Shown here: piece after piece, positions 379 through 25,747 of the stretch
Layout: each line of letters starts with the position of its first letter
How positions within the stretch are numbered: the stretch's first letter is position 1
Assembly: GCF_001544015.1 (NCBI RefSeq)
Contig: NZ_AP014924.1
Location: 372,001-436,000 of the forward strand
Source of the DNA: Limnochorda pilosa
GTDB taxonomy: Bacteria; Bacillota; Limnochordia; Limnochordales; Limnochordaceae
DNA: 64,000 nt
Direction of reading: 5' to 3'
Notes under the pieces: model-generated
The model's input: the letters and a program-made list of their open reading frames with translations, nothing else
What the model was told of the DNA's origin: nothing
Database searches by the model: none
Made by a program: the position numbers and the translations under genes

Positions 379-1338
379 GTGGACGCTCGTCCGTTATCCA
401 GTAGATCATGGCTGGCGGGTCGTCGGGGTATGGCCGTCCTCTCGGTTGCACTCTGTCTCCTGGCGTTTCCGGAGCCGGATGCTGGGGCTCAGGGAGCGGT
501 GCTTGTCGGGACAGTGGCCGTCGGAGGACAGGTGGAACCGTATCAAAGTATGTCTGGTGACGAGCTCGGTGGGTTGGCCCACCGTATCGGGTACCTGAAT
601 GCGCTCGCGAACGCGGGTTCGAAGCCTCTCTTCGTCGACGCGGGGGGCGGGTTCTTTGCGGATGCAACAGTGGCCCAACTCACGCCCGACCCGTCCATCA
701 TGACGGCCATGTTCATCGCGAAGATGTACGAGGAGATGCGAGCGGTGGCCGTCAATGTGGGACCCTCGGACTTGGCGTTCGGGCTTGACTTCTTGGAGGA
801 GCTCGTGGCCACCTACGAGACGCCGTTCGTTTCGGCCAACCTGACGTCGACGTCAGGGACCGCTGTCTTCGATCCTTATCGGATGGTTTCCGTGGACGGT
901 GTCAACGTCCTCGTGACCGGACTGTGGACCAGCACGGAAGGGTCAGCGATTTCGCGGGCCACGGGCTACCAGGCCGTGGTGCAAGATCCTGCTCGGGCAC
1001 TGCGGTCTGTCATCCAGTCGGCAGGAGGACAGGCGGACTGGATCGTTCTCATGTCACAACTGTCACCCAGCGAGGAGCTCTCGATCGCGCAGGCGTTTCC
1101 CACCGTTGACCTCATCCTGAGCGCACCGAGTGGCGGGAGCGATCCGGGTGAGGAGTCCGTCGGCGACGTCAGGATCCTCAGGATTCCACCTCGGGGCGGC
1201 GCCGTCGGTACCTTCGATCTGGAAGAGGAGCGCGGCGAGATCGTATGGCTGGATACAGCCGAGGTTGCCGCGGACCCGGAGTCGGCGCGTACCGTCGAGG
1301 AATTCCTGGTGGAGCTCCACGAGAAGTGCGGGTGTTGA
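379..1338 (+). CDS. secreted UshA/5'-nucleotidase-like protein ending in Cys-Gly-Cys
   Basis: The 319-residue product resembles the N-terminal metallophosphoesterase-like half of UshA-type 5'-nucleotidases. It shows a GGLAHRIGYLNAL segment, then FVDAGGGFF, then VNVGPSDLAFGLDFL and PFVSANL. Typical UshA metal-binding signatures (DxHG, GNHE) are not seen, so catalysis is doubtful. Residues 18-38 form a signal peptide. The GTG start at 379 is preceded by AGAAGGAG (359-366); ATG at 430 is an alternative. The last residues are Lys-Cys-Gly-Cys, a redox-like tail. UshA-like proteins are known in (seleno)protein forms, and this gene sits directly before tRNA-Sec and selB, which supports a selenium-linked role. 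That role is inference. Confidence 0.65.
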   Translation: MDARPLSSRSWLAGRRGMAVLSVALCLLAFPEPDAGAQGAVLVGTVAVGGQVEPYQSMSGDELGGLAHRIGYLNALANAGSKPLFVDAGGGFFADATVAQLTPDPSIMTAMFIAKMYEEMRAVAVNVGPSDLAFGLDFLEELVATYETPFVSANLTSTSGTAVFDPYRMVSVDGVNVLVTGLWTSTEGSAISRATGYQAVVQDPARALRSVIQSAGGQADWIVLMSQLSPSEELSIAQAFPTVDLILSAPSGGSDPGEESVGDVRILRIPPRGGAVGTFDLEEERGEIVWLDTAEVAADPESARTVEEFLVELHEKCGC

Positions 1339-1375: not shown

Positions 1376-1474
1376 GGAGGTGGATGAGTCCCGGTGGGCT
1401 CCCCGGTCCTCAAAACCGGTGGCGCGCCGCTGCGAGCGGGGCGCGGTGGGTTCGACTCCCACGCACTTCCGCCA
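1376..1474 (+). tRNA. selC: tRNA-Sec (anticodon UCA)
   Basis: This is a 99-base tRNA with the features of bacterial selenocysteine tRNA. The acceptor stem is long (GGAGGTG against CACTTCC, with one G-U pair and a mismatch at the eighth position). The D stem has 6 base pairs (GAGTCC/GGGCTC). The anticodon stem CCGGT/ACCGG encloses loop CCTCAAA with anticodon TCA at 1410-1412. There is a long GC-rich variable arm, a T arm GTGGG-TTCGACT-CCCAC, discriminator G and an encoded CCA. It lies 23 bases upstream of selB and supports reading UGA as selenocysteine in the genes downstream. Confidence 0.95.
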
Positions 1475-1497: not shown

Positions 1498-3462
1498 ATG
1501 CAGACTCTGTGCACGGCGGGACACATCGATCATGGAAAGTCCGCCCTCGTGAGGGCGTTGACCGGGATCGATCCCGATCGCCTTCGAGAAGAGAAGGAAC
1601 GGGGCCTGACCATCGATCTCGGATTCGCCTGGCTTACGCTGCCAAGCGGGCGGACGGTGAACGTGATCGACGTCCCTGGACATGAGGATCTCATCAGAAA
1701 CATGCTGGCCGGGGTCAGTGCGGTTGACGCGGTGCTTCTCGTCGTGGCCGCGGACGACGGCGTCATGCCCCAAACGCGGGAGCACCTGGCCATCATGGGC
1801 CTGGCGGGTGTCTCAAGCGGCGTCGTGGCCCTGAACAAGATCGACGTGATGGACGATCAGGAGTGGATCGACCTTGTGGAGGCGGACGTGAAGGAGGCTT
1901 TAGCCGGTACGCACTTGGCGTCCGCCGAGGTGGTACCGGTGTCGGCCCGCTCGGGCAAGGGTCTGGAGCGCCTTCGCGCGACCCTTGACGAGACGCTCGC
2001 CAGGGTGAAGGCGCGCGAGGACCTGGCACACCCGCGGCTTCCCATCGATCGAGTCTTCAGTATCTCCGGGTTCGGGACGGTGGTGACGGGTACCCTAGTC
2101 GATGGGAGCATTTATCTGGGCCAGGAGCTGATGGTCTTCCCCGACAAGGGTACGGTCCGAGTAAGAGGGCTCCAGGTTCACGGGAATCCGGTCGATCGCG
2201 CGGAGCCGGGCACACGCGTTGCAGTGAACCTGCACGGAGGTACGAGCACCTTGCACCGCGGCACGGTCCTGGCCGAAGCCGACGCGCTCGAACCCGCGTA
2301 CGTGGTGCACGCCCGGGTTCGAATGCTCGGTGACCTGTCCCATGCTCTGCGTCACAATGAGGTGGTCGAGTGCTACTGGGGAACGGCGCGCACCATGGCC
2401 CGTGCCAGGCTTATTGAGGGGGATGAGCTGGAGCCGGGGAAGGAGGGGTGGGTTGAGTTCCGCTTCGCTCAACCGGTGAGCATGCTCCGGAACGACCGGT
2501 TCATCATTCGCCACCCTTCCTTAGGTGTGACCCTGGGCGGGGGGCGAGTGGCCGATCCGCGAGCTGCTCGACACTCGGGCCGGCGCAAGCGAGTTCTCGC
2601 TTCAGTTGAGCGGCTGAACGACGGGGGGCCACGTTCCGTCGTGAAGGCGGTTTTGTCAGACCTCGAACCCTGCCCGGCCGCTACCGTCATCCGAGAGAGC
2701 GCGCTTCCTCGTAAGGTAGCCGACCTTGCGTTGCAGCAGCTTCTCGACTCGGGAGAGGTGCTTTCTCTCGCGACGATCGGGGGGAAACAGCAGGAGCCGC
2801 AACCCGCGGCGTTGCTCGTGAGCCCGACAGGTTGGGCCCGCATTACGGAGCGGCTGCGCGATGCTCTACACGCATACCATCTCGAAAAGCCGTTGCGGCG
2901 GGGCATGCCGCGAGAGCAGTTGCGCCACCGTATGCGGATGGACCCTCCGACGTTCAACGCCGTGCTCGGCGCGGCGGCGCGCGAGGGTCTGGCGGTGTCG
3001 CTCGGGCCGGTAGTCTCCCTGACCGAGCACGATGTGCGCTTCACGCCAGAGCAGGAGCAACGCATTGATGGGTTGAAGCGCAGGCTCCGAGAAACCCGCA
3101 ATGCACCGCCCTCGCGCGCCGAGATGGAGGCCGCGGTCGGCCCGGACGTTTTCGAGGCCTTGGTCGAGCAAAGGTTCCTGATCAAGGTGGCCGACGATCT
3201 GTACTATCCGAGCGACGTCTACGATCGGATTGTGAACGAGCTCGTTCAGTTCATCCGCGAGAACGGACGCATATCCGTGGCGCAAGTGCGCGACCTCTTC
3301 GGGATCAGCCGAAAGTACGTCATCCCGCTCCTGCAGCACTGCGACGACCTACACCTGACGCGGCGGATCGGCGATGACCGCGTGCTCTTCGGATGTGCGC
3401 CGGAGCCTGGTGAGCGTGCTCCTGGAAGAGAAGGCATGCATCAGGAGGTGATCACGCCCTGA
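1498..3462 (+). CDS. selB: selenocysteine-specific translation elongation factor SelB
   Basis: SelB is a GTPase that delivers Sec-tRNA to the ribosome at UGA codons marked by a SECIS hairpin. The 654-residue product has the full translation-factor G domain: GHIDHGKS (8-15), switch region GLTIDLGFAWL (about 36-46), DVPGH (58-62) and NKID (113-116). EF-Tu-like beta-barrel domains follow. The C-terminal third is the set of winged-helix domains that bind SECIS RNA, ending near a FGISRKYVIPLL segment. The length is normal for the family. The ATG at 1498 follows AAGGA at 1481-1485. Its place between tRNA-Sec and three UGA-containing genes fits exactly. selA and selD are not in the window and must lie elsewhere. 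Confidence 0.97.
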   Translation: MQTLCTAGHIDHGKSALVRALTGIDPDRLREEKERGLTIDLGFAWLTLPSGRTVNVIDVPGHEDLIRNMLAGVSAVDAVLLVVAADDGVMPQTREHLAIMGLAGVSSGVVALNKIDVMDDQEWIDLVEADVKEALAGTHLASAEVVPVSARSGKGLERLRATLDETLARVKAREDLAHPRLPIDRVFSISGFGTVVTGTLVDGSIYLGQELMVFPDKGTVRVRGLQVHGNPVDRAEPGTRVAVNLHGGTSTLHRGTVLAEADALEPAYVVHARVRMLGDLSHALRHNEVVECYWGTARTMARARLIEGDELEPGKEGWVEFRFAQPVSMLRNDRFIIRHPSLGVTLGGGRVADPRAARHSGRRKRVLASVERLNDGGPRSVVKAVLSDLEPCPAATVIRESALPRKVADLALQQLLDSGEVLSLATIGGKQQEPQPAALLVSPTGWARITERLRDALHAYHLEKPLRRGMPREQLRHRMRMDPPTFNAVLGAAAREGLAVSLGPVVSLTEHDVRFTPEQEQRIDGLKRRLRETRNAPPSRAEMEAAVGPDVFEALVEQRFLIKVADDLYYPSDVYDRIVNELVQFIRENGRISVAQVRDLFGISRKYVIPLLQHCDDLHLTRRIGDDRVLFGCAPEPGERAPGREGMHQEVITP

Positions 3463-3520: not shown

Positions 3521-5254
3521 GTGCGACACACACTTGCATGGCGGATGGTCATCGTGTGGGTGGCGCTGGCTGTGACTACGGTGCCGGTCGCTTTCGCGGC
3601 GGGCGGCGCGGACGTGCAGACGTGGCAACTCGTCAGTCCTGAAGGTGTCGTCGTGGTGGAACCGGTCGAGGCAAATCCGCATCCGACCACCTTGGAAGGC
3701 AGGACGATCGCCCTGTTCTGGAACGGGAAGCACAATGGCGACCTGTTCCTCACCCGAGTAGGCGAGCTTCTGATGGAGCAGGTGGAAGGCGTCGAGATCA
3801 TCAGGATCTGGGAGAATCACCCAGAGACGGCGGGCATCTCGGGATCTGTGGACAAGAGTAAGGCGAAGGCGGCGATCGTGGCCGGCTACAAGCCCGACCT
3901 CGTCATCGCCTCACAGTGCGATTGAGGGTCCTGCACGTCGTGGCTTGTCCACGACCAGGTCGAAATCGAGAAGCTGGGCATCCCGACCGTTACCATCAGC
4001 ACGACAGAGTTCGACGGGCTGGCGCTTAATTCCGCCCGCAGTTTCGGCGTAACCGACATGGCACGCGTCGTTGTGCCGCACCCCATGGGAATGATCAAGC
4101 CGGACGAGATCAGGGCCAAGGCGGATGCCGCATTCGCAGAGATCCTGAATGTGGCCACCGGGTGGCAGCCGAGCGCGGCGCAAGTGGCCGCCGCGGCACC
4201 GCCCTATCCGGCGCCCGTGATCAGGTTCACCGGCACCGATGAAGACGTCAACGAGCTCTTCTTCCGCAATGGCTGGTCTGTGGGCCTGCCCATCATCCCG
4301 CCGACGCCCGAGCGGGTGCAGGCCATGCTGAAGGGCACCAGTCACCGCCCCGACGAGGTCATCGGCATGATGACGCCCCGTATGGGTGCCGTCACGGTGG
4401 AACTGGTGGCAGTACACGCGGTGATGGCGGGCTGCAAGCCGGACCAGATGCCCGTGCTGCTCGCCGCCGTCGAGGCGCTGGTCGACCCAAGCTATCGAGG
4501 GCCTACCACAACGACCAACCCGACCGCGCCGCTGGTCGTCGTCAACGGTCCGATTGTGGACGAGGTAGGCATTGCGTATGGGCAGGGGGCGGCTGGGCCA
4601 TCCCAGCAGGCCAACGTCTGCCTCGGCCATGCGATCAACCTCATCGGCGACGTCATCGGCGGTTCAAGGCCGCCTGAGCCCGACAAGACGACCCTGGGCT
4701 GGCCTGGCAATACGGTGGCCATGGTGATCGCCGAGAACGAACAGGCTAATCCCTGGGGCCCTCTGCACGTGGAGCGGGGCTTCAACCCGGGCGATAGCAT
4801 CGTCACTGTGATGACCGGGGCTGAGATTCCGGCCAACATCAATGACCACAACAGTATCACCGGAGAGGACTTGCTGCGAGTCATTGCGCACAGTATGGAC
4901 CGGGCTGGGCAAAACACCCGCTGCTTCTCCGACTCCGATGTACTCGTGATTCTGAGCCCCGAGCACGCAGCGACCATCTTCAGCGACGGCTGGAAGAGCA
5001 AGGACGAGATGCGGCGGTTCTTGTGGGAGAACTCGAAGGTGCCCTTCGAAGCCATGCCAGGGGCAGGGGCCATTTGCAAACCCCCGCGCTGGTTTGGCAG
5101 CCCCGGGCCAGGTGACATGATCCCCATCGTCTCAAGTCCGGAGCGCATCCAGCTCATCGTGAGCGGCGGTGCCGGCAAGCACAGTGTCTACGTCTCCTCC
5201 TTCGGCGCCCAGACGCCGCGGCTGATCAGCGTGTCGGCGGACAAGTGGCGGTAA
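3521..5254 (+). CDS. secreted selenoprotein, UGSC family (first copy, UGA read as Sec135)
   Basis: The frame is open from 3521 to TAA at 5252-5254 except for one TGA at 3923-3925. Read as selenocysteine it gives a 577-residue protein with Sec at 135 in the motif U-G-S-C (135-138). GTG at 3521 is chosen because GAGGAGGAAG (3508-3517) precedes it. Residues 1-26 are a signal peptide. The N-terminal domain carries WNGKHNG (67-73) and ends IASQCD before Sec. The large C-terminal domain has GLPIIPPTPERV, then AVHAVMAGCKPDQMP, and ends GGAGKHSVYVSSFG. The UGSC family of (seleno)proteins is known but its reaction is not. U-x-x-C resembles thioredoxin-fold and glycine-reductase B redox motifs, so thiol/selenol redox chemistry outside the membrane is inferred. 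Confidence 0.88.
3923..3959 (+). promoter_or_regulatory. SECIS-like element of the first UGSC gene
   Basis: After the UGA (3923-3925) comes an 11-base gap and then a perfect 7-bp stem GTCGTGG (3937-3943) / CCACGAC (3949-3955) with loop CTTGT. An outer CCTG/CAGG stem (3930-3933 with 3956-3959) is separated by a three-base bulge. Forty bases (3919-3958) are identical to the matching region of the next selenoprotein gene, although the flanks diverge. Stem size and spacing match bacterial SECIS elements recognised by SelB. Confidence 0.75.
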
Positions 5255-5271
5255 CGACGGTGTGAAAGGGT

Positions 5272-5302
5272 GGCCGCTCGGCCCGCTCAGGGCCGAGCGG
5301 CC
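5272..5302 (+). other. intercistronic stem-loop
   Basis: A perfect 13-bp inverted repeat GGCCGCTCGGCCC (5272-5284) / GGGCCGAGCGGCC (5290-5302) has a 5-base loop. No T-run follows, so it is not a typical terminator. It lies just after the first UGSC gene and could stabilise or separate the transcript segments. Confidence 0.6.
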
Positions 5303-5431
5303 GTCCAGATCTCGGACATCCAGCGCTGCTGGCGGAAGCCAAGGTGTAGCGGACGACTGCTCGCCCAGCGGACTCGGATCGCCGGTGAGCATGGAAGCGC
5401 TGCACGGACGACAGAAGGGGGCTGGGACGGG

Positions 5432-7153
5432 ATGAAAGGGCAATGCTGGTGCATCGTGATCTGCTCGCTCGTAGTCGCCTTGGTCGGCGCCGTAAGTGCA
5501 GGCCCGATCGTCGCACAGGAGGCCCAGAAGTGGGAATTGGTCAACCCGGAGGGCGTTGCATGGGTTGAACCAGTGAAGATCGCGGAGCGAGTCGACTCGC
5601 TGGAAGGCAAGACCGTCGTGCTGTTCTGGAACGGGAAGCACAACGGCAACAACTTCCTCGACCGGCTGGCTGAACGGCTGGATGCCCAAGTGGAGGGGGT
5701 GCGTGTCCTCAAGTCGTGGGAGGAACCGCTCAACGTCCCACCCGGACAAAACGTCGCGGCCCAGATGATCGAAGCATGGCAGCGAGTAGGGATCAAACCG
5801 GATCTGGTGATCGCCTCCCAGGCCGATTGAGGGTCCTGCACGTCGTGGCTTGTCCACGACCAGATTGAGTTCGAAAAGCTGGGTGTACCGACTGTCACCG
5901 TTACCACGACGGAGTTTGAAGGATTGGCCCGGTCCACCGCGGCCAGCTTCGGTGCCGCGGACCTGTGCTTCGTCGTCCTACCTCATCCCATGGGCGGCAT
6001 CAAACGGGAGGCCATCCGCGCCCAGGCCGACAACGCCTTTGAAGCCGTCGTGCGAGCCGCGGTGGACTGGAGGCCGTCCGCTGCCCAGATGGCTTCACGA
6101 AGGGGAGCATACCCCTCAGAGCACTTCACCTTCCAAGGCAGCCTCGATGACGTGATCGCCCTCTACTCTGGCAACGGGTGGAGCGACGGGCTGCCCATCA
6201 TTCCGCCGACGCCGGACCGGGTGGCAGCCATGCTGAAGGGGACGCACCGATCCCCAGACACGGTGATCGGCACGGTTCCGCCTCGCATGGGCATGCTCAC
6301 CGTCGAGCTGGCCGCGGTCCACGCTGTGATGGCCGGTGCTCGCCCAGAGCATTTTCCGCTCATCCTGGCGGCGGCCGATGCATTGCTGGACCCACGACAC
6401 GACTTTCGTTCAGCAACCACCACCACCAACCCCTGCGCCATCTTCATTCTGGTCACCGGGCCAGCGGTGCAGGAGATCGGGGTTCAGTACGCTGAAGGCG
6501 CGCTGGCGCCGGGTCCGTTCAGTGGGCCGAACGCGACCGTCGGGCGCGCGATCAACCTCATCATGGACGTGGTGGGTGGATCGAAGCCGCCGTCGCCTGA
6601 CAAATCAACCCTCGGCTCGCCCGCCAGCTACACGATGGTATTGGGAGAGAACGTGGACGCGACCCCGTGGAAGACGGTCAACGAGCAACTGGGGTTCGAC
6701 CGTGATGCCAATTTGGTGACCGTCTTCGAGATGCGCAGCTTCGTCAACTTCAACCTGCATAACCCCAACACCGCGGAAGGGCTGCTCGATCCTATGGCGG
6801 CTACGATCGGTCCGGTGGCAGGTCTGGCTGAGAACGCGTTCGAATGCGGGCGCGGTCCTGCCAAGGTACTGGCATTGAGCCCAGAGCATGCGGCGACCAT
6901 CGCTGGGGAGGGGTGGACCGAAGCGGATGTGAAGGCCTACCTGCACGAGCATGCAAGCATCTCGATGGAGCGGTACCTCGTGCGTAACAACGGTGTGGAA
7001 CCCGACTGTCGGCAGGATGAGGCCGAACCGTCAGTCTTGGCGGAGCCTGGCAACGTCCTAGTGGTCGTGGCGGGCGGTCCGGGCAAGCACTCGGTCTATC
7101 TGGAGACCACCCGGTACGCGCCCGTCTCCAAGTCCCTGGAGGCGTGGAGATAG
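5432..7153 (+). CDS. secreted selenoprotein, UGSC family (second copy, UGA read as Sec133)
   Basis: This is a tandem paralogue of the preceding gene. The frame is open from ATG 5432 to TAG 7151-7153 apart from TGA at 5828-5830. Read through, it is 573 residues with Sec133 in U-G-S-C. A signal peptide covers about residues 1-28. The N-terminal domain again has FWNGKHNG (65-72) and the phrase KPDLVIASQAD before Sec. The C-terminal domain repeats GLPIIPPTPDRV, HAVMAGARPEHFP and a terminal GGPGKHSVYLET. In the first copy the residue two before Sec is Cys; here it is Ala, so that Cys is not essential. The start is the first ATG before the signal peptide; its ribosome site is weak. A redox role at the cell surface is inferred. 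Confidence 0.88.
5828..5863 (+). promoter_or_regulatory. SECIS-like element of the second UGSC gene
   Basis: UGA at 5828-5830 is followed by the stem GTCGTGG (5842-5848) / CCACGAC (5854-5860) with loop CTTGT. The spacing is identical to the first copy, and 40 bases match without change. The outer stem is one pair shorter because the last G is A here. Confidence 0.75.
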
Positions 7154-7180
7154 ACGGATGGCGGCGGTTGGGGTTGAGCG

Positions 7181-7271
7181 CGTCCCGGCAGTTGCAGGCT
7201 GCTCGAAACACGCCGCTTGTGCGATGGGGGCTTGAGGGTTGAGCAGTGAAGCGAGGGCAACCGCCGGGACG
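7181..7271 (+). other. structured RNA candidate between the UGSC genes
   Basis: A long-range stem pairs CGTCCCGGC (7181-7189) with GCCGGGACG (7263-7271), then after one A-C mismatch GTTGC (7191-7195) with GCAAC (7257-7261). Inside it CTGCTC (7199-7204) pairs with GAGCAG (7241-7246), leaving a 36-base purine-rich apical region. No protein is recognised in the segment. It could be a riboswitch-like leader for the downstream gene, a processing site or a decayed repeat. I do not recognise a known class. Confidence 0.35.
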
Positions 7272-7282
7272 AGAGGAGGGAT

Positions 7283-7306
7283 GGCGGGGGGTGATCGCCC
7301 CCCGCC
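7283..7306 (+). other. GC stem-loop before the short UGSC paralogue
   Basis: A perfect 9-bp stem GGCGGGGGG (7283-7291) / CCCCCCGCC (7298-7306) has a 6-base loop. It lies 50 bases upstream of the chosen start of the next gene and immediately after the larger structured segment. Confidence 0.5.
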
Positions 7307-7355
7307 GATATTCGTGCCGAGCTGCAACAGTCGGATCCGGAGGATGAGCCGCCTG

Positions 7356-8687
7356 ATGACGCGGACAAGGATCGCACTCGCAGCGTGCATGGCCGCGGCT
7401 CTCCTTGAAGCCGCGGTGGTCTCGGGCTCTAGCGGCACTGACGTCGCAGGGGAACGCTCCGTCGGACAGGAGTCGCACGAGGTGTGGATCTACAATCCTG
7501 CCGGTATCCGTCCGGACGGTCAGTACGTGGATGAACTGCTCTCGGCCACGATGCGGGAGATGGGGCTGTCGAAGCCGCCAATGGCAGGGCAGTTTCCCAA
7601 GGCACGCGTCGAGCGAATGACCGTGGAGTCGGACGTCCTGGACGAGGTCAACCGACTGTTCTACGAGCGTGGCTGGTCGGATGGTCTACCCATCGTGCCC
7701 CCCACGGCGCAACGCGTCGCCGAGATGCTCAGAGGGGCCGATCTTTCCCCAGATGTCGTCGTGGCTACCCTTCCTCCGATGGGGGGGCAGGCGACCATCG
7801 AGAAGATCGCGGTCAACGCGGTCATGGCCGGCTGCCGGCCCGTCGACATGCCCCTCCTCATCGCAGCCACCGAAGCCCTTGCCGATCCCGCTTTCGACCT
7901 CCGAGGCCTGGCTACCACAACCAGCCCCGACACGCCCATGGTCATCGTGAGCGGGCCCATCGTGTCGCAGCTCGGGCTCAACGCCGGCACCAACGCATTG
8001 GGAAGAGGATGGCGGGGGAACGCGGTCGTAGGTCGAGCGCTGCACTTGATCGTTCAAAACATAGGTGGAAGCTGGCCGGGCGTCACCGATCTGTCGTGCT
8101 TGGGCTATCCTGGGGATTTCACGATGGTCTTGGCCGAGAACGCCGAGGCGAGCCCCTGGGCCCCCTTCCACACAGATCTGGGGTTCAGCAAGCGCGCCAA
8201 CGTGGTCAGCGTCGTCGGCGCTGAAGGGACCCACAACATCCTGGGGATCGGTCAGGGCACCCGCGGCTTCATGAAGCTGGTGGCCGCCCACCTTGCTGGC
8301 ATGGATCGCCCCATCCGCTCGGTGGTCGTACTGATCGTCGCCCAGGACACCGCCCAACAGCTCGCCGAAGAGGGATGGACCCCCAAGAGCATGCGGGCGT
8401 TCATCCAGGACAACGCTGCGATTCCGTTTTACGTCTACAAGGAGCGTTTCATAGACACAGGGATGGCACGGCGGGTGCCGGATTGGGTTCACCAGACCCA
8501 ATCGCCCGACGAGCTGATTCCGACTCCCCTCATTGAGCAAATGCTGATCCTGGTTTCAGGAGGGCCGGGTGAGAAGAGCATGGTCGTTCCAGGATGGCCG
8601 GCTGGTTCGATGGTGAGCCGGGAGATACGACTGCCCTGGAATTGGGACGAGCTGGTCGAAGCCTATGTGCCAGACTACGATCGATAG
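7356..8687 (+). CDS. exported UGSC-family paralogue lacking the selenocysteine domain
   Basis: The 443-residue product aligns with the C-terminal part of the flanking selenoproteins: GLPIVPPTAQRV, AVNAVMAGCRPVDMP, ATTTSPDTPMVIVSGPIV and a terminal LVSGGPGEKSMVV. The N-terminal domain and U-x-x-C motif are missing. A WIYNPAGI phrase just after the signal peptide recalls the start of the mature selenoproteins. ATG 7356 begins a good signal sequence (about residues 1-22) and lies 12 bases after GGAGG (7339-7343); ATG 7344 is possible but lies directly against it. A naturally shortened partner or subunit is more likely than a pseudogene, because the frame is intact over its whole length. Confidence 0.75.
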   Translation: MTRTRIALAACMAAALLEAAVVSGSSGTDVAGERSVGQESHEVWIYNPAGIRPDGQYVDELLSATMREMGLSKPPMAGQFPKARVERMTVESDVLDEVNRLFYERGWSDGLPIVPPTAQRVAEMLRGADLSPDVVVATLPPMGGQATIEKIAVNAVMAGCRPVDMPLLIAATEALADPAFDLRGLATTTSPDTPMVIVSGPIVSQLGLNAGTNALGRGWRGNAVVGRALHLIVQNIGGSWPGVTDLSCLGYPGDFTMVLAENAEASPWAPFHTDLGFSKRANVVSVVGAEGTHNILGIGQGTRGFMKLVAAHLAGMDRPIRSVVVLIVAQDTAQQLAEEGWTPKSMRAFIQDNAAIPFYVYKERFIDTGMARRVPDWVHQTQSPDELIPTPLIEQMLILVSGGPGEKSMVVPGWPAGSMVSREIRLPWNWDELVEAYVPDYDR

Positions 8688-8868
8688 ATGAACCGTCGAG
8701 TCGACGAAGGGACTCGCTGGCTCATCGCCGCGCGGGCCGCGTCGTAGCCGGGATTGGATCAGCAAACTGAAGCGACTCCGCGAGCATCGGGCAATCGGCG
8801 TGCAAGCTGGCATTGATACACTAGGCATTGTGGGAAGGGAACTTCACGCGAACGGGGTGATGTTTGGT

Positions 8869-9339
8869 ATGCAAGGATTCGCAGTGCGGCGGCAGATGTT
8901 GAGCCGTCTGGGCGTCGCATCCTTCGTGCTGTTGCTGGGAGGCCTCCTCCTGGCGCGGGGGGCATCGGCGCAAGCTTTTCAGATGATCTCGGCCCAAGAT
9001 CTGAGGTCGCTGATCGATGGGCCCGAGGCTCCGGTCGTGTTGGACGTACGGCTGGCCGACGAGGTTTCGGTACTGGGCAAGATCCCGGAGGCGACGGTCG
9101 TCTCCCTGAACGACCTCATGCTTCAAGTGTCCTCCGTTGTGCCCGACCAGGGCGCAACTGTCGTCATCTACGCGGCAAGCGACGCCACGGCGAAGATGGC
9201 CGCGTTGGCCCTCACCCAACTCCTCGGTTACACCGACGTACGGTTTCTCGAGGGAGGCTTCGACGCCTGGGACCTATCGGGATACCCCGTGGAACCGTGG
9301 GAGGGTCCTCAGGCGGCACCCATTCCCGGAGGCTGCTAA
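8869..9339 (+). CDS. secreted rhodanese-like protein without the catalytic cysteine
   Basis: The roughly 156-residue product has a signal peptide followed by one rhodanese fold: QDLRSLIDGPEAPVVLDVR, then IPEATVVSLNDL, VVIYAASDATAKMAALAL and FLEGGFDAWDLSGYPV. In active rhodaneses the loop after VVIY starts with Cys; here it reads Ala-Ala-Ser, so persulfide transfer by the usual residue is not possible. The only cysteine in the mature part is the final residue. ATG 8869 is used; 8860 and 8896 are alternatives with no decisive ribosome site. It sits between two UGSC-family genes, so a binding or scaffolding role in the same extracytoplasmic system is inferred. Confidence 0.7.
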   Translation: MQGFAVRRQMLSRLGVASFVLLLGGLLLARGASAQAFQMISAQDLRSLIDGPEAPVVLDVRLADEVSVLGKIPEATVVSLNDLMLQVSSVVPDQGATVVIYAASDATAKMAALALTQLLGYTDVRFLEGGFDAWDLSGYPVEPWEGPQAAPIPGGC

Positions 9340-9378
9340 CCACGAGAGGATAGGATCAGGCGTGACCGAGCGACGGGG

Positions 9379-9405
9379 CTGGTCGCTCCCGATGGGAGCG
9401 GCCAG
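9379..9405 (+). other. intercistronic stem-loop
   Basis: A 12-bp stem CTGGTCGCTCCC (9379-9390) / GGGAGCGGCCAG (9394-9405) with one G-U pair and loop GAT. No T-run follows. It lies between the rhodanese-like gene and the third selenoprotein gene. Confidence 0.6.
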
Positions 9406-9457
9406 TCTCCTCCATCGGGAAACGCGGGTGGAGCGGCATGGAGTGGAGATACGCTCT

Positions 9458-11269
9458 ATGGATATGTGGGTAAGAAGGAGGTTCGCCCAAGTGCACGGTG
9501 CGCGTGGTTGGCGGAGATGGAGCATGCTCTTGGCCGTCGTCATGTCGTGGTCGTTGGCTGCGGCCATCAGCCCTACGGCCTCAGCTGCCGTTCAGTTCTC
9601 GGTGTTGAATCCATCGGCCGAAATCGAAATCACCCATCCGATCGCTGCCCGACCGGGAGACCTCAACGGCAAGAGGATCGGCCTCTGGGCTTCGTCCGCC
9701 GATCCAATCTACGGGTACGGTGCCGCGTTCCTCGAGAGCCTCGGCGAAGCTCTTCAGGAGCGGTACCCAGACATTGCGTTGATCCCGCCGGCGGAGTTCC
9801 CAACGGACTACCACATGCAGGACGAACTCTTCGCAGCGATCGAGGCCCACGGCGTGGAGGCCGTCATCGGCGGGGTGGGCGGCTGAGGCGGGTGCAATCG
9901 GGCGATGGGTCTCATCGCCGTCGAGCTCGAAAAGGCGGGTATCCCGACCACGTTCGTGCTGTTCGAGGACCAGGAAGCGACCTTTCTTGCTCAGGCAGGC
10001 TTGAACGGCCAAGGTGTGCTGCCCGCCGTGACCGTGCCGGCAGCTGAACTGACGGAAGAAGCGCGCGCTCGGCAAGCCGGACGTGAAGTCGTGGATGACG
10101 TAGTGAACGGGCTTACCCGAGGCATCCCACCCTATCTGGAACGCAACGAGAATAGGCTGATTCCGTCTCCTTCGGTCTTGACGTTTAGGGGCGAAGACTA
10201 CGGCGGGGCCTATCAGGCCTTCATGGAGACGTTCACCGAGAGGCGTTGGGGGGACGGCCTGCCTTTGATCCCACCGACACCGGAGCGGGTGGAATGGGTC
10301 CTCGAGGGGACCGATCGCACGCCGGGCACCGTCCTTGGCGCCATGGGGCCCAGCATGGGAGAGGTCACGGTGCGTCAGCTGGCCATCAACGCGGCCATGG
10401 CAGGAGCTCGACCCGAGCACCTGCCGGTCATCATCGCGGCCATGGAGGCCATCACCGCCTACCCTTACGACTACCATGCGCCTCTGGCTCGCGGTGTGGC
10501 GCCACTGGTGATCGTGAACGGGCCGATCGTGGATCAACTGGGGATCAACCACGCACAGAACGAGCTGGGGCCCCACCCGGGCTATCCGGCCGGGGCCGTG
10601 ATCGGTCGGGCCATCAACCTTGCCATGCGCAATCTCGGCGGGTTTGGCCGAGGGTACGTTCCACCCGCCCAGCACGGGCAACCAGGAACGTACACGGGCC
10701 TCGTCATCGGTGAGGCAGAGGACGTGGTGCCCTGGACACCCCTCAACGTGGAACTGGGCTTTGAGCGGGGAACGAATACGGTGACGGTCCTCGGTGTGTC
10801 TGGAACCGTCGGCGTTCCTGGACCCAACCCGGAGCACGCGGCGGCCTTCGTGCCCCCGAGTATCCCATTCTGGCCGTCAACGCGGTTCGCGTGGCAACGT
10901 TCCACCGTCGGCGTCCTCCTGGTCACGCCTTTGCAGGCGCGGCGTTTCTTCGGCCAAGGGCGGTCCAAGCAGGACATCAAGGAGGTTCTGTACACCTACG
11001 CCCGGACCCCTCGTGACGAATTCGAGCGGACGTGGCAACTCGATGAGTTCGAACCGACCGGATTCATTGGGTGGCTCCTCCGGACCACTCCCGAAGACGA
11101 GCCCATTCCGATCGCTGCTGGCCCCGACAGCTTCCTCGTGGTCACAGCCGGCGGGTGGGACAGCTCGGTCGCGTTCTCGTGGCTGTTCACAGACCTCTAT
11201 ATGAACGTTCCAACAACCAAGGTGGTGCACCTTCCACAGGACTGGGAGGACCTCTTGAGCGAGCGGTAG
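9458..11269 (+). CDS. secreted selenoprotein, UGGC variant of the UGSC family (UGA read as Sec143)
   Basis: One TGA (9884-9886) interrupts an otherwise open frame from ATG 9458 to TAG 11267-11269. Read through, it is 603 residues with Sec143 in U-G-G-C, followed by NRAMGLIAVELEKAGIPT. The flanking U-x-x-C then alpha-helix then AGIPT layout resembles the selenoprotein B family of glycine/betaine reductases. A signal peptide covers about residues 1-43. The C-terminal part matches the other paralogues (GLPLIPPTPERVEWVL, AINAAMAGARPEHLP, a final VVTAGGWDSSV). The N-terminal domain is divergent and lacks WNGKHNG. The reaction is unknown; exported selenol redox chemistry is inferred. Confidence 0.85.
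9884..9919 (+). promoter_or_regulatory. SECIS-like element with GGUCU loop
   Basis: UGA (9884-9886) is followed after 14 bases by a perfect 7-bp stem GGCGATG (9901-9907) / CATCGCC (9913-9919). The loop GGTCT matches the apical loop of the well-studied E. coli formate dehydrogenase SECIS, where the G and U contact SelB. It differs in sequence from the two upstream elements. Confidence 0.8.
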
Positions 11270-11290
11270 GGCAGGGAAGGGGATCGATCT

Positions 11291-12778
11291 GTGACGGGAC
11301 GGTATCGTGAGCCACGACGACACAGCAGCACCGTGCTGATGTTGATCGTCCTTCTGGGAGCGAGCCAGGCAGTTCGGGCATCGGCGTCCAGTGCTGACCC
11401 GGTTCCCTCGCACGCACGGGGGGCCCTGGAGAGTTGCGAGATGTGCCACTTCAGCCGCCAGCGCCTTATCCAGACGGCGGACTCGCCTGAGGAGGCGGAG
11501 GCGGTCTGGGTGGATCAGAGGGCCTTTCTCATGGCGAGGCATCCCTTTCAATGTGTCGTCTGTCACGGAGGGGTGTCGCCGGCAAGCGGGAAGGAGATGG
11601 CCCACGAAGGGCTCATTGAGGACCCGGGAGCACCGGAGGTGCTGGGCCAGTCGTGCGGGCAGGAGAAGTGCCATCCAGAGATAGCCGAAACCTACCCCAC
11701 TTCCCTTCACGCTACCGTTCAGGGTCTCAAGAACGGGGCTTATGAGGTGTTGCCCCCCGAGGAGGCGGAGCGGGTTGTCTCCGGCCGGTGCAATACGTGC
11801 CACGCAGGGTGTTCGGATTGCCACCTCGCTGAGGGCGACGGGAACCTGCGCGTGGCCAGCCACGACTTCAGCGCGACGAACGGCTCGGACGTCTGCATCC
11901 GCTGCCATCAGGAAACGGGAACGGGCTTCGAAGGGGCCGAGGGCTTCTTCGGCCCCAGCGTCCACGCCTCGGCTGGGCTGGAGTGCACCGATTGCCACCG
12001 GGGGTCGGAGGTACACGGCACGGGGGAGGCTCTGAGCAACCTCCGTCAGGCCATCGCGATCTCGTGCACGGACTGCCATCGGCAACCAGGTACCGTGGTA
12101 CGCGGTCTCGAAGTACCCCAGTACCAGACCGGCGGTGAGAACGTCTCCCACGCTCTCCACGAAGAGAGCCTGGACTGCACCGCGTGTCACATCGAGTGGA
12201 ACTACAACTGCTACGGCTGCCATGGCTACGACGAGGCGGCCCAACCCAAGGGCTACCAGAGCTTCGATACCGAGGTGCACCTCGCGGTGGACCCGGCGAA
12301 GGACAAGGTGGCAACGGTGGTCCACGCCCCCATGAGTCGCACCGTCGGCGGCCGGGAGTACGCATACGGCGCGTGGGCGTTCAAGAACCGCCATGCACTC
12401 CAAGTGGCCCCTCGTTCGTGCGAGGAGTGCCATGCTGACGGTTCCATCTTCATCGACAGCCGGTGGCGGCGAGCCCCCTTCGTGGGGACCTTCTCAGGCG
12501 CTGAATTCGTCGCGGACGAGACCGTCGACGCGATCCGAGTCTCCCGAGAGGCGGCGCTGGCTCTGGCGGCCTGGTTCATGCCGGAGCGAGACCAGGCGAC
12601 AGCCCAAGCTGCCCAGGTCAGTCTGGATGGGGTGGAGGAAGGGGATCACGTGGCCGTCCGGTGGGCCCTGTGGTTCTATCGGGTACTGATTCCCCTGGTC
12701 ATCGGAGGCTTCATCCTGCTCATCGTCCTGGACGTGCGAAGGCGCTCGCTGCACCGGCGGGAGGGGAGGGCTTCCTGA
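11291..12778 (+). CDS. membrane-anchored multiheme cytochrome c
   Basis: The 495-residue product has an N-terminal signal sequence, ten CxxCH heme motifs and one CGQEKCH motif (Cx4CH). This suggests up to eleven c-type hemes on the outer side of the membrane. A transmembrane helix near residues 460-480 (WFYRVLIPLVIGGFILLIVL) followed by basic residues anchors it. GTG 11291 follows AGGGAAGGGG. The stop overlaps the start of the cytochrome b gene by one base, so the two are probably made together and pass electrons between the quinol pool and exported partners. Similarity to NapC/NrfH-type or tetrathionate/DMSO chains is only general. Confidence 0.88.
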   Translation: MTGRYREPRRHSSTVLMLIVLLGASQAVRASASSADPVPSHARGALESCEMCHFSRQRLIQTADSPEEAEAVWVDQRAFLMARHPFQCVVCHGGVSPASGKEMAHEGLIEDPGAPEVLGQSCGQEKCHPEIAETYPTSLHATVQGLKNGAYEVLPPEEAERVVSGRCNTCHAGCSDCHLAEGDGNLRVASHDFSATNGSDVCIRCHQETGTGFEGAEGFFGPSVHASAGLECTDCHRGSEVHGTGEALSNLRQAIAISCTDCHRQPGTVVRGLEVPQYQTGGENVSHALHEESLDCTACHIEWNYNCYGCHGYDEAAQPKGYQSFDTEVHLAVDPAKDKVATVVHAPMSRTVGGREYAYGAWAFKNRHALQVAPRSCEECHADGSIFIDSRWRRAPFVGTFSGAEFVADETVDAIRVSREAALALAAWFMPERDQATAQAAQVSLDGVEEGDHVAVRWALWFYRVLIPLVIGGFILLIVLDVRRRSLHRREGRAS

Positions 12779-13806
12779 TGGATCAGAGGCAGAGGCATGC
12801 AGCTGGGTCCAACGAGATCAAGGGGGGGCACGGCGCACCTCCCGACCGCCACCTGCGGTTCGACGTCCCGACGCGCATCCAGCACTGGGTGATGGTGAGC
12901 GCATTCGTCGTCCTGTCCGTGACCGGCTTGCCGCAGATGTTCTCCGGCTCCGGGACCGGTGGGGCCCTGTTGGGGTGGCTGGGCGGGCAAAGCAGTGTCC
13001 GGGCGATTCACCGCGGGGCCGCCGTCGTCTTCATGGCGGTGTTCGTGTGTCATGTCCTGGAACGGGTCTACCGAGTGCTGGTGCAGGGACGGCCCTTCCG
13101 CATCCTGCCGGGGCCGCAAGACGTACGTGACCTCATCGACGAGATCCGCTACGATCTGGGCCTGCGGGCGGAGCGCCCCCGTTATGGGCGGTTCAGTTAC
13201 GCTGAGAAGGTGGAGTACTGGTCCCTCATCTGGGGTGCGGTGATCATGGGGGCGAGCGGCCTGCTTCTCTGGAACGGGGCGGCCACCGCCGTACTGACGC
13301 AGCCAGTTGTCGTTGCGGTGGCCCGAGTCGTGCACGGCTGGGAGGCGGTGCTGGCCGTCCTGGCCATCGTCATCTGGCACGTCTACCATGTCCACGTGCG
13401 ACACGTAAACCGGAGCATGTTCACAGGCTACCTGACCCGGGAGGAGATGCTCGAGGAGCACCCGCGCGAGCTTGAGGAGGCAGGCGAGACTCCTCCGGTG
13501 GTCATGGGGTGGCGGCGGTCTGTTCGCCTGGCAGGGGCCCTGCTCTCGACGGGGCTCGTGGTCTGCTTCGTGGTGGCGGCGGGCTGGTGGATGAGTCTGG
13601 ATCCATCAGGGTTGGTGCCTCCCGAGGAGGCGCGGGGGACGGTCCTGGCAGCAACGCCCAGGGCGTGGGGGCCGTCCGTACCCCACGACGTAAGCACCCG
13701 TCCCGGCTGCGGGGGCTGCCACGGAACCAGGGCAGCCTGGCCGGGACCCGGCTTCACAGCCCAGCTACCGGCCGAGACGTGCCTCTCCTGCCACGCCCAG
13801 CAGTAG
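12778..13806 (+). CDS. cytochrome b561-type membrane subunit with a C-terminal diheme c tail
   Basis: The 342-residue product resembles the cytochrome b subunit of formate dehydrogenase and thiosulfate reductase. It has HWVMVSAFVVLSVTG, then IHRGAAVVFMAVFVCHV, then HGWEAVLAVLAIVIWHVYHVHV, giving several conserved His in four helices. An extra helix near residues 250-270 leads to a short exported tail with two heme motifs, CGGCH and CLSCH. The ATG at 12778 overlaps the upstream stop. It is likely the quinol-oxidising partner of the multiheme protein. The fused diheme tail is not usual for this family and would give a direct electron exit. Confidence 0.85.
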   Translation: MDQRQRHAAGSNEIKGGHGAPPDRHLRFDVPTRIQHWVMVSAFVVLSVTGLPQMFSGSGTGGALLGWLGGQSSVRAIHRGAAVVFMAVFVCHVLERVYRVLVQGRPFRILPGPQDVRDLIDEIRYDLGLRAERPRYGRFSYAEKVEYWSLIWGAVIMGASGLLLWNGAATAVLTQPVVVAVARVVHGWEAVLAVLAIVIWHVYHVHVRHVNRSMFTGYLTREEMLEEHPRELEEAGETPPVVMGWRRSVRLAGALLSTGLVVCFVVAAGWWMSLDPSGLVPPEEARGTVLAATPRAWGPSVPHDVSTRPGCGGCHGTRAAWPGPGFTAQLPAETCLSCHAQQ

Positions 13807-13897
13807 GCGGGCGACAGTGAGCGAACCGAGACGATCCGGGACCGAGGGCTCGCAGGACCCTCTCGGGCCTGGGCCTGATCCTGGAGGTGGAACACCT

Positions 13898-15043
13898 GTG
13901 AAGAAGTACCTGACGGAAATGCTCACCTGGCCTGTCCTGACGGGTCTCGTCGTCGGCGTTCTGGCTCCCGTTCTCGTGAAGCTGGGGAATCCCCACAACA
14001 TGGGCGTCTGCGTGGCCTGCTTCACCCGGGACATCGCCGGGGCCCTGGGGTTCCACCGGACCGGGAGCGTCCAGTACCTCCGCCCGGAGATCATGGGGAT
14101 CGTCCTGGGTTCCTTGGCGGCTGGCCTGGTGTTTCGCGAGTTCCGCCCTCGAACCGGTTCCGCCCCCTTGGTCCGGTTCGTCTTGGGGTTCTTCGCCATG
14201 ATCGGTGCCTTGGTCTTCCTGGGCTGCCCGTGGCGGGCCTACCTCCGGCTGAGCGGCGGCGACTGGAACGCGCTCTATGGGATACTGGGGCTGGCGGCGG
14301 GGATCGGCGCCGGGGTGGGTTTCCTCAAGTCCGGGTTCAGCCTTGGGCGAAGCAGGCCGGCTGCACCCGCCCTCGGTTGGATGATGCCAGCAATCATGGT
14401 GGGTCTGCTGCTCTTGGCGGTCCTCGCGCCGCAGTCAGGCCTCGCTGCGGACGGAAGCCCCACAGGTCCCGTCTTCTTCTCTACCCAGGGCCCGGGGAGC
14501 CAGCATGCACCCTGGCTGAGCTCCCTGGGAGTGGGGCTCCTCCTTGGCTTCCTGGCCCAGCGCAGCAGATTCTGCACCGTGGGTGCGCTGCGTGACGTGA
14601 TGCTCTTCAGGGAGACGCATCTCTTAGGGGGAATCGTCGCGCTGATGGCCGCTGCCTTCGTGACGAACGTAGTCCTGGGCGAATTCCATGCCGGTTTTGA
14701 GAACCAGCCGGTGGCTCATTCGAACGTGCTCTGGAACGTCGGGGGCATGGTGCTGGCCGGTCTCGCCTTCACCCTGGCAGGTGGCTGTCCGGGCCGGCAA
14801 CTGATTCTGTCGGGCGAAGGGGACGGGGACGCGGCACTCTTCGTCCTCGGGATGCTTGCGGGGGCCGGAGCGGCGCACAACTTCAACATGGCCAGTTCCC
14901 CGGCCGGTCCCGGTGCGTACGGGCCCGCAGCGACCCTGGTGGGCTTGGTGATCTGCACGGTGCTCGGATTCACGATGCGCGAGGTGCCTGAGCAGAGGGC
15001 CAGCGCTACAGGATGGGGTGCGGCGAGCCAGGTCAGCAAGTAG
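13898..15043 (+). CDS. yedE: selenium metabolism membrane protein YedE/FdhT
   Basis: The 381-residue polytopic membrane protein matches the YeeE/YedE family in its selenium-linked form. NPHNMGVCVACFTRDIAGALG (30-50, Cys38 and Cys41), GCPWRAYLRLSGGD, RSRFCTVGALRDV and GGCPGRQLILSGEGDGDAA are hallmark segments. YedE is proposed to take up a selenium or sulfur species for selenoprotein synthesis. GTG 13898 is chosen because GGAGGTGG lies 8 bases upstream; an earlier GTG at 13817 would add a non-conserved extension. It is the first of four consecutive genes for selenium or sulfur handling. Confidence 0.92.
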   Translation: MKKYLTEMLTWPVLTGLVVGVLAPVLVKLGNPHNMGVCVACFTRDIAGALGFHRTGSVQYLRPEIMGIVLGSLAAGLVFREFRPRTGSAPLVRFVLGFFAMIGALVFLGCPWRAYLRLSGGDWNALYGILGLAAGIGAGVGFLKSGFSLGRSRPAAPALGWMMPAIMVGLLLLAVLAPQSGLAADGSPTGPVFFSTQGPGSQHAPWLSSLGVGLLLGFLAQRSRFCTVGALRDVMLFRETHLLGGIVALMAAAFVTNVVLGEFHAGFENQPVAHSNVLWNVGGMVLAGLAFTLAGGCPGRQLILSGEGDGDAALFVLGMLAGAGAAHNFNMASSPAGPGAYGPAATLVGLVICTVLGFTMREVPEQRASATGWGAASQVSK

Positions 15044-15077: not shown

Positions 15078-15296
15078 GTGGATGATGCGGTGTTGGACGC
15101 CCGGGGGCTCTCCTGCCCGGAACCGGCCCTTCGAACCGTTGAGCTGCTGGAGCGGTCACACGGCGGGACGGTGATCGTCCTGGTAGACTCGGTCAACTCC
15201 CGGGACAACGTGGCCCGTACCGCGGCCTTGCACGGCTGGCAGTCCACGGTGGTCGAGTTGGCGGGCGGAGACTATCAGGTGGTCCTTCGCAAGTGA
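15078..15296 (+). CDS. TusA/YedF-like sulfurtransferase-family protein
   Basis: This 72-residue protein has the TusA/SirA fold with the signature LDARGLSCPEPALRT (7-21), including the conserved Cys-Pro. It corresponds to the N-terminal half of YedF, the partner of YedE in selenium metabolism; the second YedF domain is absent. GTG 15078 follows AAGGAGG (15064-15070). Its stop overlaps the start of the desulfurase gene (GTGA), so translation is coupled. It probably carries sulfur or selenium on the cysteine. Confidence 0.88.
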   Translation: MDDAVLDARGLSCPEPALRTVELLERSHGGTVIVLVDSVNSRDNVARTAALHGWQSTVVELAGGDYQVVLRK

Positions 15297-16447
15297 TCTA
15301 CATGGACCATGCAGCGACCTCGTGGCCCAAGCCCCCTGAGGTCCTCAAGGCGATGATACAGTACCTGGAAGAGTCTGGCGGCAATCCGGGGCGCTCAGGG
15401 CATCGTCTCTCGGTCGCCGCGGGCCGGATCATCTACGAGACTCGGGAAGCAGTGGCCGAGTTGCTGGGCGTGCGTGATCCCCTGCGGGTCATCTTCACGC
15501 TCAATGCGACGCACGCGATCAACCTGGTCCTGAGAGCCACGCTCCGTCCAGGAGATCGTGTGGTCGTTACGGGTATGGAGCACAATGCGGTGATGAGGCC
15601 CCTGCGGGCCATGGCGGTCAAGCACGGGATTCAGGTCGTGGTAGCGCCGGCCCAATCCGACGGGAGCACCGATGTGGCACAGGTGGGACCACTGCTGCAG
15701 CCGAAAGCCCGCCTTCTGGTGGCTGCTCATGCGAGCAACGTCACTGGGACTCTCGCGCCGATGGAAGAGCTCTCCCGCCTCGCGCACGCCGCGGGGGCGT
15801 TGGTCTTGGCGGACGCTGCGCAGACCGTGGGTGCGGTTCCCATCGGAATAGGGCACATGGGGGCGGACTTCCTCGTCTTCAGTGGCCACAAGGGCCTTCT
15901 GGGACCACCTGGCACGGGCGGGGTCGCCCTGGGCGACGGGGTGGATGCCACAGCCCTCGAGCCGCTGATCCTTGGTGGAACGGGGAGCCGCTCCGAATCT
16001 GAGGAGCCGCCCGCCCACCTCCCGGACCGGTTCGAGGTCGGGACGCCCAACGGTGTCGGACTGGCCGGGTTGGGGGCCGGGGTACGCTGGGTGCAGAGCC
16101 ACGGGGTGGAGGAGCTTCGCGCGCGGGAGATGAGCCTGCGCAGACAACTCGTCGAAGGGCTCAAGACGTTGCGCGGGGTCGTCGTTCACGGACCGCGCAA
16201 TCCCGCAGATGCCACGGCGGTGGTTTCGTTCACCGTGCTGGGTCGCTCGGTGTCCGAGATCGGATCACAGCTTGACGAACGTTTCGGGATCCTGTGCAGG
16301 GTGGGTCTCCACTGCGCGCCGCGCGCCCACCGAAGCATTGGAACCTATCCAGAGGGTACAGTCCGACTTTCGCCGGGCCCGTTCATCGAACCTGCGGACA
16401 TTGACGCGGTGCTCTCTGCGCTGAGACAGGTGGTGGCACGTTCATGA
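15293..16447 (+). CDS. cysteine desulfurase / selenocysteine lyase family PLP enzyme
   Basis: This class V aminotransferase-fold enzyme has 384 residues. It begins YMDHAATSWPKP, binds PLP through Lys200 in SGHKG, and carries the catalytic-type Cys341 in GLHCAP followed by AHRSIG. The pattern fits the cysteine desulfurase family close to SufS/CsdB. Such enzymes release sulfur from cysteine or selenium from selenocysteine. The overlap with the TusA-like gene upstream and the DUF3343 gene downstream points to a selenium or persulfide delivery unit for the selenoproteins and perhaps for the molybdoenzymes. Substrate choice cannot be read from sequence. Confidence 0.9.
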   Translation: MIYMDHAATSWPKPPEVLKAMIQYLEESGGNPGRSGHRLSVAAGRIIYETREAVAELLGVRDPLRVIFTLNATHAINLVLRATLRPGDRVVVTGMEHNAVMRPLRAMAVKHGIQVVVAPAQSDGSTDVAQVGPLLQPKARLLVAAHASNVTGTLAPMEELSRLAHAAGALVLADAAQTVGAVPIGIGHMGADFLVFSGHKGLLGPPGTGGVALGDGVDATALEPLILGGTGSRSESEEPPAHLPDRFEVGTPNGVGLAGLGAGVRWVQSHGVEELRAREMSLRRQLVEGLKTLRGVVVHGPRNPADATAVVSFTVLGRSVSEIGSQLDERFGILCRVGLHCAPRAHRSIGTYPEGTVRLSPGPFIEPADIDAVLSALRQVVARS

Positions 16448-16716
16448 ATCCACAGGGTGTCGTCCTCTTCCATACCAGTTCGTCCGCATTCCGAGCAGAG
16501 AAGATTCTCTTGCGGGATGGGCTCCGCTGCAAGCTCATACCCACACCCCGGGAGATGTCCAGTGACTGCGGAATAGCGCTGTGGTTTGCAGGCGTTCGGC
16601 CCGATCATGTGGCCGGCCTGCTGGATTCGGCGAACGTGGAGGTTGCGGCGATCCACGGGACAGGTGGAACGCGGGGCAGAGTCCAACGGATCTCTCGGCC
16701 TGAGAACGGTTCTTAG
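16444..16716 (+). CDS. DUF3343 putative Se/S carrier-like protein
   Basis: A 90-residue protein with the DUF3343 pattern: FHTSSSAFRAEKILLRDG, then KLIPTPREMSSDCGIAL with the conserved single Cys. Members are small thiol carriers often found beside selenium or sulfur genes; function is not proven. The ATG overlaps the desulfurase stop (ATGA), so it is translationally coupled and is the last gene of the selenium supply block. Confidence 0.85.
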   Translation: MNPQGVVLFHTSSSAFRAEKILLRDGLRCKLIPTPREMSSDCGIALWFAGVRPDHVAGLLDSANVEVAAIHGTGGTRGRVQRISRPENGS

Positions 16717-17789: not shown

Positions 17790-17848
17790 GGCAGAGGGAG
17801 CCGGAGGAGTCGTTCCGCCCCGGTGGGCGGGGCTGGATCGCTAGCCTC

Positions 17849-17916
17849 GGAAGTACGGGCTCGTGACGGGGAACCATCCCCACGAGGCCGACGATCACAT
17901 CGCCCTCGAACTGTGG
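17849..17916 (+). pseudogene. remnant of torD between dmsC and dmsA (operon 1)
   Basis: These 68 bases align without gaps to 22785-22852 inside the intact torD of operon 2, with roughly four in five bases equal. They would encode KYGLVTGNHPHEADDHIALEL against KYGLVTRNYPHEADDHLGFEL. Nothing else of torD remains. It sits exactly where operon 2 has the chaperone gene, so a deletion removed most of it after duplication. Confidence 0.8.
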
Positions 17917-17927
17917 AGGTGTAAGCG

Positions 17928-20531: not shown

Positions 20532-20545
20532 GGAGGCGGACGACG

Positions 20546-21094: not shown

Positions 21095-21124
21095 ACGCCT
21101 TGCCCGCTGCAGGAGGGGATCTGG

Positions 21125-21214
21125 ATGCGGGTCGAGACAGGCGGCAAGAACCTGTCCACCCACCGGAACCCCTCCTGCCCAAGGGCAAGCCCTACCGGGT
21201 CCTCCACGACATGA
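21125..21214 (+). pseudogene. remnant of the radical SAM gene after dmsB (operon 1)
   Basis: The segment starts AGGAGGGGATCTGG-ATG like the intact radical SAM gene of operon 2. It encodes MRVETGGKNLSTHRNPS, matching MLVEIDRDNLSIIQNPS. It then jumps in another frame to KGKPYRVLHD, which matches KAKPYRVLYD about 290 residues further into the intact protein. The fusion stops at TGA 21212-21214. It is therefore a deletion product of a former full gene. The rest of 21215-21456 shows nothing except the next promoter. Confidence 0.75.
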
Positions 21215-21312
21215 TGAGAGGCGATACCGTGTTTCCAATGCACCGAATCCCTGGGACCCGTCATGGCCCGTCATGAGCGGATTGTGCCGGGGTAATGGTG
21301 ACGATGGTCCCG

Positions 21313-21342
21313 TTGAAGTGATCCTCGAAAGCCGCATAGAAT
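21313..21342 (+). promoter_or_regulatory. promoter of the second DMSO-reductase-like operon
   Basis: TTGAAG (21313-21318) and TAGAAT (21337-21342) are 18 bases apart, matching the arrangement before operon 1. The flanking bases from 21297 are also shared. It would start transcription about 110 bases before dmsC. Confidence 0.6.
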
Positions 21343-25733: not shown

Positions 25734-25747
25734 GGGGTGGGTGAAGA

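Follow-up and report, generated by a model that had tools for sequence, protein, structure and literature searches.

The UGSC domain and the selenol domain of GrdB, the selenoprotein B of glycine, sarcosine and betaine reductases, are homologous to judge from comparison of sequence profiles, and gene neighborhoods show an association of the exported branch of the UGSC family with extracytoplasmic redox modules. The reading that best accommodates these findings, and that we infer from sequence comparisons, is that the exported UGSC proteins work in the periplasm as GrdB-like selenol reductases whose electron supplies are exchangeable. The genomic island described here would yield a set of such exported Sec-dependent reductases, to which multiheme and b-type cytochromes encoded in the same island probably supply the electrons.

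The window, that is, the whole stretch of 64,000 nucleotides that was analyzed (G000:C1:372001-436000), belongs to a genome of 3.82 Mb in a single contig, and its open reading frames were re-read with in-frame TGA taken as Sec (Table 1). The first-pass annotation had called three exported UGSC selenoproteins, a shorter paralogue, a "cysteine-less" exported rhodanese-like protein, an exported undecaheme-like cytochrome and a cytochrome b with a diheme tail. The gene calls hold, with the three UGA codons located inside PF24696 matches and the C-terminal heme pair of the b561/FdhI-like cytochrome b in place, and "undecaheme-like" is a fair description of the cytochrome c because one CX4CH motif accompanies its ten CXXCH motifs; the rhodanese-like protein does lack the active-site Cys, but its last residue is a Cys. 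The tRNA-Sec, SelB, YedE, the YedF/TusA-like carrier, the desulfurase and the 90-aa protein had not been listed before, and neither had SelD and, beside it, an additional (fourth) UGSC selenoprotein on the opposite strand (the upstream copy), both just upstream of the window. The Sec-decoding set is complete, with SelB, tRNA-Sec and SelD at the island and SelA elsewhere, at 3.69 Mb.

Table 1. Predicted genes of the island, with coordinates in the window.
Feature	Coordinates	Strand	Evidence
UshA-like exported protein, N-terminal part of NF041198, C-terminal ...KCGC	379..1338	+	NF041198 match
tRNA-Sec, anticodon TCA, G73 and CCA encoded	1376..1474 (genome from 373376)	+	ARAGORN; Rfam RF01852 69.3 bits
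SelB, Sec-specific elongation factor	1498..3462	+	TIGR00475 338 bits, cut-off 242
UGSC1, exported selenoprotein, UGA 3923	3521..5254	+	PF24696 125 bits across UGA; alignment
UGSC2, exported selenoprotein, UGA 5828	5432..7153	+	PF24696 138 bits; AlphaFold2 mean pLDDT 91
Stand-alone partner domain ("short paralogue"), exported, without Sec	7344..8687	+	homology to UGSC C-terminal domain; AlphaFold2 pLDDT 88.6
Rhodanese-like protein, exported, active-site Cys lost, one C-terminal Cys	8860..9339	+	PF00581 51 bits
UGSC4, divergent exported selenoprotein (UGGC), UGA 9884	9458..11269	+	PF24696 66 bits
Multiheme cytochrome c, exported, C-terminal membrane helix	11291..12778	+	ten CXXCH and one CX4CH
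Cytochrome b, b561/FdhI-like, two C-terminal CXXCH	12778..13806	+	PF01292 63.6 bits
YedE-family putative selenium transporter	13817..15043	+	TIGR04112 484 bits, cut-off 200
TusA/YedF-like carrier	15078..15296	+	PF01206 39 bits; TIGR03527 37 bits, under cut-off 110
Cysteine desulfurase / selenocysteine lyase-like	15293..16447	+	TIGR01977 414 bits, cut-off 377
Small 90-aa protein, overlaps desulfurase gene	16444..16716	+	position and sequence

From UGSC4 onward the genes are closely packed: a gap of 21 nt precedes the cytochrome c gene, the cytochrome c gene has its stop within the start of the cytochrome b gene, and the gaps, counted from this overlap on, are -1, 10, 34, -4 and -4 nt. Spacing of this kind is compatible with a single operon, and no terminator-like site was found on the + strand between 2760 and 18000. 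The small protein, for which the NCBIfam profile search gave no match, may be DUF3343-like. The TGA that follows KCGC at 1336 was considered as a further Sec codon and rejected, given that the motif position is already occupied by Cys and that the tRNA-Sec gene begins 37 nt on. Directly 3' of the island, at 16935-26296, lie two DMSO/selenate reductase-like sets (A and B subunits, DmsC-like membrane gene), and a candidate molybdenum cofactor riboswitch is located at 29148-29338 (Rfam RF01055, 39.8 bits, cut-off 36).

In UGSC1, UGSC2 and UGSC4, each with a signal-peptide-like N-terminus, the frame is open across exactly one UGA, homology extends on both sides of this codon, and the PF24696 match spans it with a score above the cut-off of 25 bits; a stem-loop is found about 19 nt past the UGA in UGSC1, UGSC2 and their relatives. 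The NF041046 model is passed by the upstream copy and, just at the cut-off, by UGSC1 and UGSC2; UGSC4, in which the motif is U-G-G-C instead of U-G-S-C, scores 42 bits against a cut-off of 125. The shorter paralogue consists of the C-terminal domain of the UGSC proteins alone, without the UGSC domain. UGSC2 alone, when searched against the genome collection, returned no matches, and the alignment of this partner domain returned at least 586. In the UGSC loci examined, the partner domain accompanies the UGSC domain either as a fusion or as an adjacent gene; the loci having been found via the partner domain, what follows is that this domain is rarely alone, not the converse. It is perhaps the domain that was denoted "Unknown_1" when UGSC was first described. 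That description, published in 2008 (PMC2398784), reported UGSC fused to the conserved "Unknown_1" domain and, for the Global Ocean Sampling metagenomes, placed UGSC among the selenoprotein families of greatest abundance. As a separate observation, UGSC genes are greatly expanded in G153 (10 matches) and G156 (19 matches), one genome each; at three G156 loci (L146, L147, L149), cytosolic UGSC genes are found beside apparent tripartite tricarboxylate transporter genes, and two such apparent sets are located near 33096-36125 and 52295-55602 of the window.

What chemistry could these proteins catalyze? When the UGSC domain profile is aligned with the GrdB profile using hhalign, the probability is 96.7% (E 3.4e-10), Sec falls on Sec, and a PHP-G motif is common to both; GrdE-like proteins also match the UGSC domain profile, if weakly. 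The Sec-on-Sec homology supplies a testable chemistry for UGSC, namely, selenolate attack and reductive cleavage, and the island UGSC proteins probably work like GrdB. Neither this relationship nor the exported clade is described in those papers naming UGSC that were searched. The UGSC2 protein is modeled by AlphaFold2 with high confidence (Table 1), and Foldseek matches its N-terminal domain to flavodoxin-like alpha/beta folds, so that the Trx-like fold proposed in 2008 (PMC2398784) is unsupported. The partner domain, modeled as the short paralogue, has no confident PDB match in Foldseek; its weak resemblance to fumarate hydratase (TM below 0.4) was set aside, and its candidacy as a relative of GrdE or GrdB was rejected since hhalign shows no relationship. 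GrdB itself acts together with GrdA and with the pyruvoyl protein GrdE.

In the phylogenetic tree, 25 exported sequences from Bacillota, Chloroflexota, Nitrospirota and deltaproteobacterial lineages form a single clade (support 100/99). Within it, separate subclades contain UGSC1, UGSC2 and the upstream copy, which are thus old paralogues; UGSC2 groups with the L031 and L096 proteins, and the upstream copy groups with those of L031 and G156. UGSC4 is a long branch outside the exported clade, a position that rejects its interpretation as a recent tandem copy.

The existence of an exported branch raises the question of how a selenol stays reduced outside the cytoplasm, and the neighborhoods suggest thiol or heme supplies, depending on the lineage. 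We compared the genes within 8 kb of 23 exported loci (25 listed, merged by hand) with those around 69 other, mostly cytosolic loci. Rhodanese-like genes and MauE/DoxX are each found near 7 of the 23 exported loci, cytochromes with at least three CXXCH motifs near 4, and CcdA near 3, compared to none of the 69 others in every case; thioredoxin-like genes are found near 6 exported and 2 other loci, both of the latter being weak matches. Taken together, some redox gene is present at 14/23 exported versus 2/69 other loci (Fisher p 6e-9), or, with thioredoxin left out, at 11/23 versus 0/69 (p 2.5e-8), the p-values serving only as a guide because the loci are non-independent and many contigs are short. 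Heme and thiol modules do not overlap among the 23 exported loci, which by our own estimate (about 0.09) is no better than chance.

The rhodaneses near exported UGSC genes elsewhere best match the LYCAU seleno-rhodanese family (61-77 bits, cut-off 115), and those inspected contain CxC. At L095, L152 and L197, a C554-type tetraheme cytochrome and a rhodanese are encoded beside exported UGSC, and the cluster also includes the short paralogue. Thus, the proposal of the first-pass annotation that UGSC selenoproteins are coupled to multiheme cytochromes survives in part: redox genes are enriched at the exported loci and a multiheme cytochrome accompanies UGSC at these three, but the cytochromes c and b of the window have no homologues (0) at other UGSC loci. 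Rarity of the cytochromes near UGSC had been named as evidence that would count against the coupling, and, the window cytochromes being absent from other UGSC loci, such rarity is what we find for them, although not for multiheme cytochromes generally.

Several arrangements at the exported loci deserve a separate mention. L031 (679-1323) and L144 (about 8290-8930) encode an exported lipoprotein that consists of a UGSC-type domain alone, with a U-G-H-C motif, the gene being located between those for a CxC rhodanese and MauE/DoxX; in L148, the rhodanese and MauE are arranged in the same manner. An exported DUF6282 amidohydrolase-like gene adjoins exported UGSC in L031 (4003-4992), L094 (11164-12135) and L151 (10067-11059), and may be a pointer to the substrate.

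Part of the Sec-decoding machinery is duplicated. The genome carries two SelB genes that are 40% identical (the island copy, at about 373507, and another at 3690905) and two tRNA-Sec genes (the island copy, at 373376-373470, and 3500497-3500588); the sole SelA above the cut-off adjoins the second SelB, not that of the island. A few bacteria have been reported to possess multiple tRNA-Sec genes (PMC5330540); an extra tRNA-Sec and SelB sitting with one selenoprotein set is unusual. The nearest relative compared, a member of the same genus with a completeness of 86%, lacks both a SelB above the cut-off and any match to the exported UGSC profile, which suggests acquisition of the island.

In mechanistic terms, the selenolate would attack a small organic substrate between the UGSC and partner domains and cleave it reductively, and the resulting Sec-Cys (UxxC) selenosulfide would need re-reduction outside the cytoplasm. 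The supply of electrons would differ by lineage, coming either from a thiol relay (CcdA, thioredoxin-like proteins, MauE/DoxX) or from hemes, the heme variant elsewhere being the C554-type tetraheme cytochrome with the CxC rhodanese. In the island, cytochrome b and the 11-heme-type cytochrome c would connect the quinol pool with the exported selenoenzymes and deliver electrons to the latter. This route, from quinol through cytochromes b and c to the exported UGSC selenol, is the best single reading of the island, even if we rate it at somewhat short of an even chance. The more elaborate version, in which a selenol is the end point of an anaerobic respiratory chain, GrdB-like enzymes reductively cleave organic compounds outside the cytoplasm, and a tRNA-Sec and SelB for them are encoded in the island itself, appears rather unlikely as a whole.

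The next best reading, doubtful but with a substantial share of the probability, is that cytochromes b and c together with the rhodanese make up a separate module for the respiration of sulfur or selenium compounds, similar to the ext cluster of Geobacter, that does not touch UGSC and is placed in the island because it would supply or detoxify selenium for the neighboring Sec genes. Homologues of the cytochrome c, with about ten hemes each, are found in ten other Bacillota, nearly always next to an exported rhodanese-like gene, and no UGSC is present near them in the sequence stretches examined; in the window, the cytochrome module directly precedes YedE. In the ext cluster (extHIJKLMNOPQS), a cytochrome b and cytochromes with 10 and 12 hemes are encoded together with a rhodanese and with ExtKL, a predicted selenoprotein cytochrome (PMC5877670). 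Against a separate module, the UGSC4 gene sits between those for the rhodanese and cytochrome c, a different rhodanese and multiheme pair occurs beside exported UGSC in three other genomes, the rhodanese of the island lacks the sulfur-transfer Cys, and the ext family profiles are far from matching (ExtM, 50 bits versus a cut-off of 800; ExtO, 20 versus 200; ExtP, no match). The Bacillota loci (L171-L180) themselves constitute a recurrent module of a small one-heme protein, the approximately ten-heme cytochrome c and the exported rhodanese-like protein, which sometimes includes cytochrome b and YeeE/TusA-like genes; L174 has both of these and a hexaheme cytochrome.

Electron flow from quinol to the selenol could also be reversed, the exported selenoenzymes oxidizing a substrate and delivering electrons to the multiheme cytochrome and then to quinone or an outside acceptor. 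The gene set would be identical and the sequence leaves the direction unfixed, but we consider this improbable, given that the relationship to GrdB indicates a reductase and that the thiol-relay neighbors elsewhere (CcdA, thioredoxin-like, MauE) better fit the supply of reductant. The least probable possibility is that a thiol relay operates here too, the cytochromes being chance neighbors: thiol-relay genes are the commoner neighbors of exported UGSC and the genome has one CcdA that might act with a thioredoxin-like protein, but this CcdA is far from the island, at 3.31 Mb, and could serve cytochrome c maturation only, and MauE is absent from the whole genome.

How does the island compare with known systems? 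It resembles the ext cluster in that multiheme cytochromes c are grouped with a cytochrome b and a rhodanese-like protein, and differs in that its cytochrome c has no family-level match there and in that UGSC was not found described for ext (PMC5877670). Sequence matches to the UshA-like (seleno)protein NF041198, a model that appears to join a UshA-like domain and a C554-type tetraheme cytochrome, also connect exported Sec proteins with hemes. The first protein of the island corresponds to the N-terminal half of the model (135 bits, model positions 17-269, cut-off 275), and the tetraheme cytochromes of L095, L152 and L197 match its C-terminal part, both being single halves under the family cut-off. 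The SAO and Tso operons, named in a review that keeps UGSC separate in its family table (PMC13188914), have multiple selenoprotein genes per operon, as does the island. Compared to GrdB, the island proteins are exported, carry another partner domain and have UGSCTSW, with the third Cys missing, in place of UxxCxxC; PF07355 is absent from the Pfam matches of UGSC proteins and from the whole genome. By these sequence features, they are members of the UGSC family (PF24696, NF041046), not of GrdB: the domain and the position of the UGA are the same as in other UGSC proteins, and what sets the island proteins apart within this family is their export, a clade of their own and the extracytoplasmic redox genes nearby.
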